A stretch of DNA of 64,000 nucleotides from Bifidobacterium merycicum DSM 6492. Its GTDB lineage: Bacteria; Actinomycetota; Actinomycetes; Actinomycetales; Bifidobacteriaceae. Positions within the stretch are counted from its first letter, which is position 1, and the number at the start of each line of letters is the position of its first letter. Below the pieces are notes generated by a model, which worked only from the letters and a program-made list of their open reading frames with translations, searched no databases and had not been told where the DNA came from. The position numbers were made by a program, and so were the translations under genes. The stretch covers positions 1 to 64,000 of the forward strand of contig NZ_FQTX01000003.1 of assembly GCF_900129045.1 (NCBI RefSeq). The letters are read 5' to 3'. Below are positions 62,969 through 64,000 of the stretch, piece by piece.

Positions 62969-63610
62969 ATGACTAACGATGCAGCAAATCCCGAAGACCA
63001 AGTCGAGAAGATGTTCGAATACGGTTACCGCAAGTCCAATTACGGACCCGACGAGCTGGTGACCGACGCGCACGGCAACCCCATTTCCGTAGTGGACGCC
63101 ATGCTGAGCGCCGAAGACGCGGCGAAGGCGGAAACCGCCACACCGCACCTGTGCTACTACTCCCCGCGCATTCCGGGCAACACCGGTTCCGCAATCCGCC
63201 TGTGCGCGGTGACCGGCACAATCCTGCATTTGGTGGAGCCACTTGGATTCAATCTGCGCGATACGAAGCTGCGCCGCGCCGGATTGGATTATCACGATAT
63301 GGCGCACGTGGTATTACACCCGAATTTTGAAAACCTAGTGGAATCCATGCCGAATTCACGCATCATCGCGTTCACTGCACACGCCACCAAACTGTATACC
63401 GATATCGAATACAAACCGACCGATATTCTATTGTTCGGCCCGGAGCCGGGCAATATTCCCGATCCGATGGATATTATGGCCGGTCCGCATGTGGCCGAAC
63501 AGGTGCGATTGCCAATGCGCCCGAGCCTGCGTTCCCTGAACCTCACCAACTGCGCATCCATCGCCATCTACGAAGCATGGCGCCAACTAGGCTTCGCCGG
63601 CGGCCAGTAA
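62969..63610 (+). CDS. trmL: SpoU-family tRNA 2'-O-methyltransferase (TrmL-like)
   Basis: A 213-residue SPOUT methyltransferase. Motif 1 is YYSPRIPGNTGSAIRLCAVTG, motif 2 LLFGPEPGNIP, and motif 3 RSLNLTNCASIAIYEAWRQL, forming the trefoil knot that binds SAM. TrmL methylates the ribose at the wobble base (position 34) of tRNA-Leu species. An N-terminal extension of about 60 residues precedes the core (MTNDAANPEDQVEKMFEYGY...), longer than in E. coli TrmL (about 157 residues). Start 62969 has no ribosome binding site and is probably leaderless. Confidence 0.9.
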   Translation: MTNDAANPEDQVEKMFEYGYRKSNYGPDELVTDAHGNPISVVDAMLSAEDAAKAETATPHLCYYSPRIPGNTGSAIRLCAVTGTILHLVEPLGFNLRDTKLRRAGLDYHDMAHVVLHPNFENLVESMPNSRIIAFTAHATKLYTDIEYKPTDILLFGPEPGNIPDPMDIMAGPHVAEQVRLPMRPSLRSLNLTNCASIAIYEAWRQLGFAGGQ

Positions 63611-63675
63611 TCCATCCCCTGCCTGCCAACTTCTAGGTTTTTCAATAATTTATTTACTTTTGTATAGCAAGTTCC

Positions 63676-63768
63676 GCGGGAGAGGCGGCGGGGGTCTATT
63701 CCCGACACGCTCCAGGCCGCTCAGGCCAAGTCTTTACGGTCTGAAACAGACCCCGCCGCCTCTCCCGC
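63676..63768 (+). ncRNA. Structured element E1 (hairpin with conserved core)
   Basis: A 93-nt element closed by about 21-base GC-rich arms, 63676-63698 and 63748-63768 (one bulged G). The interior carries a core shared with element E2: TCTATTC, CGACAC, a small GGCC/GGCC hairpin, GGCCAAG, TTACGGTCT and GAAACAGA. It could be a structured RNA, a complex terminator of trmL or a REP-like repeat. No T-tract follows the right arm. Confidence 0.5.
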
Positions 63769-63837
63769 TATGCTGAGTTCAACTTAAGTAAGTTTTCTTT
63801 TCTTTTATGCAAGACACAACGAAATGTACGAAAGCGA

Positions 63838-63924
63838 GCAGAAGAGCGGGATATTCTGTTCGAGACCGTAAGCTTGGCCGAACGGCCTTGAGTGTGTCGC
63901 GAATAGAATATCCCGCTCTTCTGC
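63838..63924 (-). ncRNA. Structured element E2 (hairpin with conserved core)
   Basis: An 87-nt element with 25-base arms (63838-63862 and 63900-63924, one mismatch). Read on the minus strand its interior aligns with that of E1 (CGACACACTCAAGGCCG, then CGGCCAAG, TTACGGTCT, GAACAGA), although the outer stem sequence is mostly different. It faces E1 with 69 bases between them. Confidence 0.5.
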
Positions 63925-64000
63925 GACCTCCCTATTACAGCAGCTTATGCACCCAACGCAAGCACAGATCGCAAGAATGAATCGTACGCGACGCATGCAT

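Follow-up and report, generated by a model that had tools for sequence, protein, structure and literature searches.

E1 and E2, two hairpin elements that lie near the end of the window (the whole 64,000-nucleotide stretch of Bifidobacterium merycicum DSM 6492 DNA analyzed here), are one pair of a dispersed repeat family in Bifidobacterium and some close relatives. We give a probability of about one-half to the reading that they form a single <E E> unit (left copy on the minus strand, right copy on the plus strand) of an old, dispersed, structured DNA repeat family in the Bifidobacteriaceae, in which hairpin heads are exchanged between copies.

The E1/E2 Pair

The pair sits where two genes converge, a SpoU-type methylase gene on its left and a DUF711 gene on its right (Table 1), and four close relatives have nearly the same pair in the same gap. 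The initial annotation had described two look-alike, facing hairpins with a common interior and differing outer stems, self-complementary over 20 to 25 bases. Their positions were confirmed, and both elements fold far better than expected by chance, with z scores against dinucleotide shuffles of −7.4, −10.6, −8.2, and −11.8 for both strands of E1 and E2, and 0 of 200 shuffles folding as well in each of the four strand tests. Comparing both copies also showed that the core is common and the outer stems are unlike. The stems are indeed self-complementary, but longer than stated (the E1 arms measure 28 and 27 nt), and the two elements do face each other, but when read on the strand with the G.U wobbles (GACCGTAA...GAGYGTGTC), E1 is on the minus and E2 on the plus strand.

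Table 1. Coordinates of the E1/E2 pair, its parts, and the neighboring genes in the window
Feature	Position	Strand	Remarks
E1, type A hairpin element	63676..63768	minus (GACCGTAA...GTGTC strand)	model R1 match 63674-63770, 89.4 bits, E value 9.6e-18
E1 first stem arm, 27 nt	63742..63768	minus	
E1 conserved core, 38 nt	63704..63741	minus	GGCC/GGCC hairpin at 63724-63727 and 63715-63718
E1 second stem arm, 28 nt	63676..63703	minus	one G more than in four close relatives
Spacer between E1 and E2, 69 nt	63769..63837	none	
E2, type B hairpin element	63838..63924	plus	model R1 match 63835-63927, 88.6 bits, E value 1.5e-17
E2 first stem arm, 26 nt	63838..63863	plus	A precedes at 63837
E2 conserved core, 35 nt	63864..63898	plus	GGCC/GGCC hairpin at 63876-63879 and 63884-63887
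E2 second stem arm, 26 nt	63899..63924	plus	G follows at 63925
Left neighbor, SpoU-type methylase gene	62969..63610	plus	stop 65 nt before E1
Right neighbor, DUF711 gene	ends ~64022, beyond the window	minus	

The Element Is a Long Covarying Stem Capped by a Conserved Core

Each copy is ~90 bases long and consists of a stem capped by a conserved core of 35 to 38 nt, with the layout A, stem, core, stem, G. The stem is usually 25 to 27 bp (22 to 33 bp among the 60 copies that were tabulated, and 18 to 19 bp in loci L002 and L003), and the foot is well defined since, among copies with 25- to 27-bp stems, an A precedes in 71/74 and a G follows in 71/74. The core is closed by GAC/GTC, its internal loop is asymmetric and conserved, and its apical hairpin is of the form GGCC/GGCC. 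Five core types (A to E) were distinguished using patterns that we wrote ourselves, with 4 of 118 comparisons including an unassigned type.

That the stems covary had been proposed from two copies, and it holds in 54 aligned copies. In this alignment, 97.0% of the stem cells are paired vs. 64.5% in shuffles, all 26 outer pairs show two-sided changes, and all four Watson–Crick types are present at 19 of these 26. Two-sided cells total 554, compared to 142.5 ± 11.2 in shuffles and to 51 to 159 when the partner was slid by one to three columns as a control. The strict-core copies L071 and L077 (plus strand) show no stem by simple extension, and the L071 copy does pair in the covariance model (83.5 bits). 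In three places, namely L011 (~300-455; C8 of the B. merycicum genome), L206 (1579-1755), and the left part of L211, the apical loop is split by a palindromic repeat, whose GCTGAGCCGTTAA... leads into a variable-stem hairpin of its own, giving the impression that one repeat was inserted into another.

Outside the foot, little is shared. The lack of a T-tract behind the stem, which the initial annotation had pointed out, extends to 74 copies, where T is found at +3 to +10 in only 5 to 21 of them. In the same number of copies, every column of the 50-nt flanks other than −2 to +4 stays at or below 0.33 bits, and there is therefore no shared promoter or terminator signal beside the element.

The Family Is Dispersed in Bifidobacterium

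The further homologues that could be expected of such an element exist, as a covariance model built from 54 copies detects the family in 71 of 112 Bifidobacterium genomes. The core pattern was found in 60 of these 112, while the same pattern read backwards, used as a control, gave one match in each of nine genomes. Across the Bifidobacteriaceae, the model detects the element in 82 of 189 genomes from 5 of 16 genera, one of which is represented by a weak match (E value 5.6e-4). Of 296 genomes drawn from the class and searched with stricter filters and with 14 candidates scored per genome, only that of B. merycicum DSM 6492 itself gave a match. The latter genome has seven model matches at an E value ≤ 0.001, plus one further copy identified by eye (L011, with its interrupted apical loop). 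Match counts per genome include opposite-strand re-hits. The matches listed comprise at least 143 distinct copies in six genomes, at least 53 copies in one incomplete genome, and at least 29 distinct copies in one single-contig genome. Loci, copies, and ortholog comparisons take in related species and are not independent.

One contig scan, with a pattern too restrictive to capture core types A and B, returned 20 Bifidobacterium stretches and one match in a Porphyromonadaceae metagenome-assembled genome (MAG), which has no stem, lies inside a called gene, and was left out of later counts. No match was found in viral contigs, with the narrow pattern and a second search, or in the plasmids searched. 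Phage records yielded a single 37-nt match that is 94.6% identical to the type B core (MT837054.1, 9088-9124), in a 9-kb "Bacteriophage sp." record that has no annotation and comes from human feces. On the single contigs of genomes G082, G087, and G088, the copies listed are mostly in the middle half (20/21, 18/24, and 23/29, respectively), a concentration that is absent from G001 (3/12).

In Rfam, a tRNA was the only match at gathering score in the 64-kb window, and the hairpin matches for five loci of the family at an E value ≤ 10 were all below threshold and mostly to plant or animal miRNA precursors, the best being MIR844 (36.4 of 70 bits, E value 9.6e-5). No published description of the element was found in the literature searched, where the supplementary tables of PMC8040213 could hold it unnamed.

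Copies Lie behind Genes and Pair Mostly in One Order

None of 109 loci is inside a called gene; 90 lie between codirectional, 17 between convergent, and 2 between divergent genes, in a count that omits copies with stems shorter than 18 bp and loci with no called gene on one side. The statement that copies avoid genes rests on a codon-usage gene caller, which replaced longest-ORF calls that had put 40 copies inside ORFs, most of them judged to be false antisense ORFs. The control for divergent gaps consists of the 18 gaps of one window (nine codirectional, six divergent, and three convergent). In the 90 codirectional loci, the upstream stop codon is the closer landmark, at a median of 41.5 nt from the element, with the next start 128 nt away (Wilcoxon P = 1.3e-5), and single copies between codirectional genes are sense in 34 cases and antisense in 35.

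When neighbors less than 600 nt apart were considered among the matches listed in six genomes, 26 of 28 were <E E>, one was tandem, and one was E> <E. In a wider set of two-element loci, 22 of 24 were <E E> and two were tandem, with further tandem neighbors in G030 and G059. The sole E> <E pair among the matches listed is in G001 (L073, C1:1919572-1919779), with its elements 19 nt apart. By its pair order, its absence from genes, and its rarity between divergent genes, the family has the BIME-like arrangement that had been proposed from the E1/E2 pair.

Stem Mismatches Are Biased on One Strand

In 130 copies, the stem mismatches read on the GACC strand comprise 155 G.T cells and 26 A.C cells, next to 113 other mismatches and 3,086 Watson–Crick cells. 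As many as 85 of the 155 G.T cells sit at three inner positions, corresponding to a shared wobble, and the ratio elsewhere is 70:26. When copies were divided by the direction of the neighboring gene, the G.T:A.C ratio was 72:7 in sense and 50:10 in antisense (Fisher P = 0.20). Since the bias is on one strand whatever the direction of the gene, it seems to be the folding of a single strand that counts, although not as part of the neighbor's mRNA, and the even split between sense and antisense copies likewise speaks against action in the neighbor's transcript. From this polarity and the flank data we infer that a DNA hairpin is the simplest fit. Tolerance of G.T is, however, also what an RNA would show, and either a DNA hairpin or a structured RNA may be at work.

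Hairpin Heads Differ at Some Shared Sites

Many loci appear to be old. Of 70 locus groups, 29 carry the element in more than one genome, and in nine of the 29 the flanking proteins have a mean identity no higher than 84%. At least two of the 29 involve one genome under two names. At shared loci, stems vary between species without loss of pairing. Some orthologous sites of the G082/G087/G088 clade have the same outer stem and flanks but a different inner stem together with a different core type, as in L174 (type A) vs. L194 (type B) and L184 (type E) vs. L198 (type C). In L180 (type A) and L203 (type D), the outer 9 bp are identical. Across 60 orthologous comparisons with a flank identity of at least 0.6, which include one locus compared twice and 20 comparisons from five near-identical genomes with the window pair (all of the same type), the core type is the same in 41 and different in 19, or in 15 without the four differences between the similar types A and C.

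Where copies have similar flanks, the two-sided changes that separate them comprise 36 transitions and 48 transversions, 8 of the latter coming from a register shift. Compensation via G.U steps alone would favor transitions. In one close trio, there is a matched one-base difference in both stem arms, and in G055, two loci have identical elements flanking a diverged spacer. We read these observations together as head exchange between copies and arm-to-arm templating. Rapid point compensation may nevertheless account for many loci, since single-step G.U intermediates occur in the stems and 41 of the 60 comparisons keep their core type. No empty site was demonstrated at the one locus compared in three genomes, whose flanks are too diverged.

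A fuller scheme is possible but rather doubtful. In it, the hairpin head (inner stem and core) would be swapped between copies as one symmetrical cassette with the outer stem and locus kept, covariation would come from hairpin-templated conversion as well as point compensation, a putative protein would read one folded strand, and inverted pairs would be gene-end boundaries. A core variant, CGTATGACTTGGCC, is found at several unlinked sites in G087 (L195, L197, L198, L202, L207, and L209) and is absent from the G088 loci compared, as expected of concerted evolution.

Candidate Partner Genes Do Not Follow the Element

The initial annotation had also suggested looking for copies near Y1/REP-associated transposases, and such a link was not supported. 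Y1 (PF01797) is present in only 7 of 112 genomes, five of which have the element, and there is none in the B. merycicum genome, so mobilization by Y1/RAYT was rejected on distribution. In G055, an amplified module consists of a small helix-turn-helix (HTH) gene followed by the element (L155, L156, and L163 to L172), and the stems differ between module copies yet stay paired. By tblastn, this gene was found in 12 of 20 G055 stretches and at no other locus examined, with relatives in 73 of 112 genomes. It was discarded as a partner because its distribution does not follow that of the element: G082 and G083 are listed with no relative, and neither G087 nor G088 appears among the matches listed, while all four are rich in the element. 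Pfam gave a below-cutoff HTH_Tnp_2 match for one of two versions of the HTH gene, and NCBIfam gave no match. The distributions of Y1 and the HTH gene in 112 genomes revealed no binding protein or mobilizing enzyme for the element.

Discussion

How does this family compare with known systems? REPs and BIMEs are, according to PMC3733652 and PMC2817692, intergenic palindromes found after genes, rarely between divergent genes, and often in inverted pairs, all of which the element shares with GTAG REPs, BIMEs, and REPINs. It differs from GTAG REPs by its stem, which is twice as long (REP stems are 5 to 13 bp), its structured core, and the rarity of GTAG at its foot, which is found on the left in 7/74 and on the right in 5/74 copies (1 and 2 of 59, respectively, in G082/G087/G088); a Y1 (RAYT) gene is also missing from its own genome. 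CGTC-tagged REPs have, according to PMC3733652, a stem of 8 to 9 bp, a loop of 4 to 5 nt, no known dedicated transposase, and pairs mostly in one inverted order. The element is similar to them in its predominant pair order and in that no transposase was found for it, but its stem and loop are longer, and its foot is mostly CGGT or CGGA. CGTC forms the right foot of 10 of the 74 strict-core copies and of 19 of 59 model matches in one clade. The terms "Bifido" and "Actinobacteria" are absent from the main text of that paper. Like an intrinsic terminator, the element is a GC-rich hairpin after a stop codon, but it has no T-tract, a very long stem, and both orientations equally often. Integron attC sites are one-strand hairpins with a variable stem and conserved recognition features. 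The element resembles them, as they are generally described, in all three respects, but its conserved part is the tip. In its layout it works like a BIME, but the hallmarks tested for GTAG REPs, for CGTC REPs (lengths of stem and loop), and for intrinsic terminators are lacking.

Other explanations were weighed. That the element might act in cis as an RNA hairpin near the 3' end of the neighboring mRNA (a noncanonical terminator, an RNase III site, or a 3' stabilizer) agrees with its position soon behind stop codons, its rarity between divergent genes, and its very stable folds. Such a role might also be reflected in the transcript ends of Bifidobacterium breve, which according to PMC5746004 are often at GC-rich stem-loops without poly-T. 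We nevertheless find this unlikely, in view of the even sense/antisense split, the G.T bias of the same sign in both settings, and the missing T-tract. A small RNA expressed on the GACC strand from a dedicated promoter would fit the G.T bias, which is independent of what neighboring genes do, and the strong covariation, but the lack of a common signal in the flanks and the subthreshold Rfam matches make it very unlikely.

Ends or remnants of mobile elements, similar to MITEs and moved by a putative transposase, would account for the many dispersed copies, the defined foot, the inverted pairs, and the repeated G055 module with its HTH gene upstream of the element. We regard this as distinctly improbable because Y1 is scarce, the HTH gene does not track the element, many loci are common to several species, and no precise empty site was found at the one locus inspected. 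Least probable of all, in our judgment, is a passive palindrome without function, kept perfect by template switching alone. Although this would explain the many transversions and the matched difference in the close trio, the conserved core and foot, the predominant pair order, and the gene-end placement need more than a mutational process.

According to the reading we prefer, that of an old, structured DNA repeat family, the acting form would be the hairpin of one strand, more likely as single-stranded or cruciform DNA than as RNA. A putative host protein would recognize it via the core and foot, and the <E E> pair may work like a BIME, as a structural boundary behind genes. Heads would be copied between elements, with one arm able to template the other through gene conversion or template switching, and selection would remove badly paired forms. 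The one E> <E pair in G001, the several tandem pairs, and the L071 and L077 plus-strand copies without a simple stem count against this explanation, as do the failure to find a binding protein or mobilizing enzyme in the searches above, the scope for rapid point compensation, the G.T tolerance that an RNA would share, and the absence of a demonstrated empty site.

Bifidobacteria are heavily studied gut bacteria, and no description of the family was found in the literature searched. The family provides a natural setting in which to test how the stems of long palindromes stay perfect, it warns that covariation alone need not mean functional RNA, and it predicts a putative hairpin-binding protein. 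Should the element mark transcript ends and be present in B. breve, it could also help to account for the transcript ends that PMC5746004 places at poly-T-less hairpins in that species.
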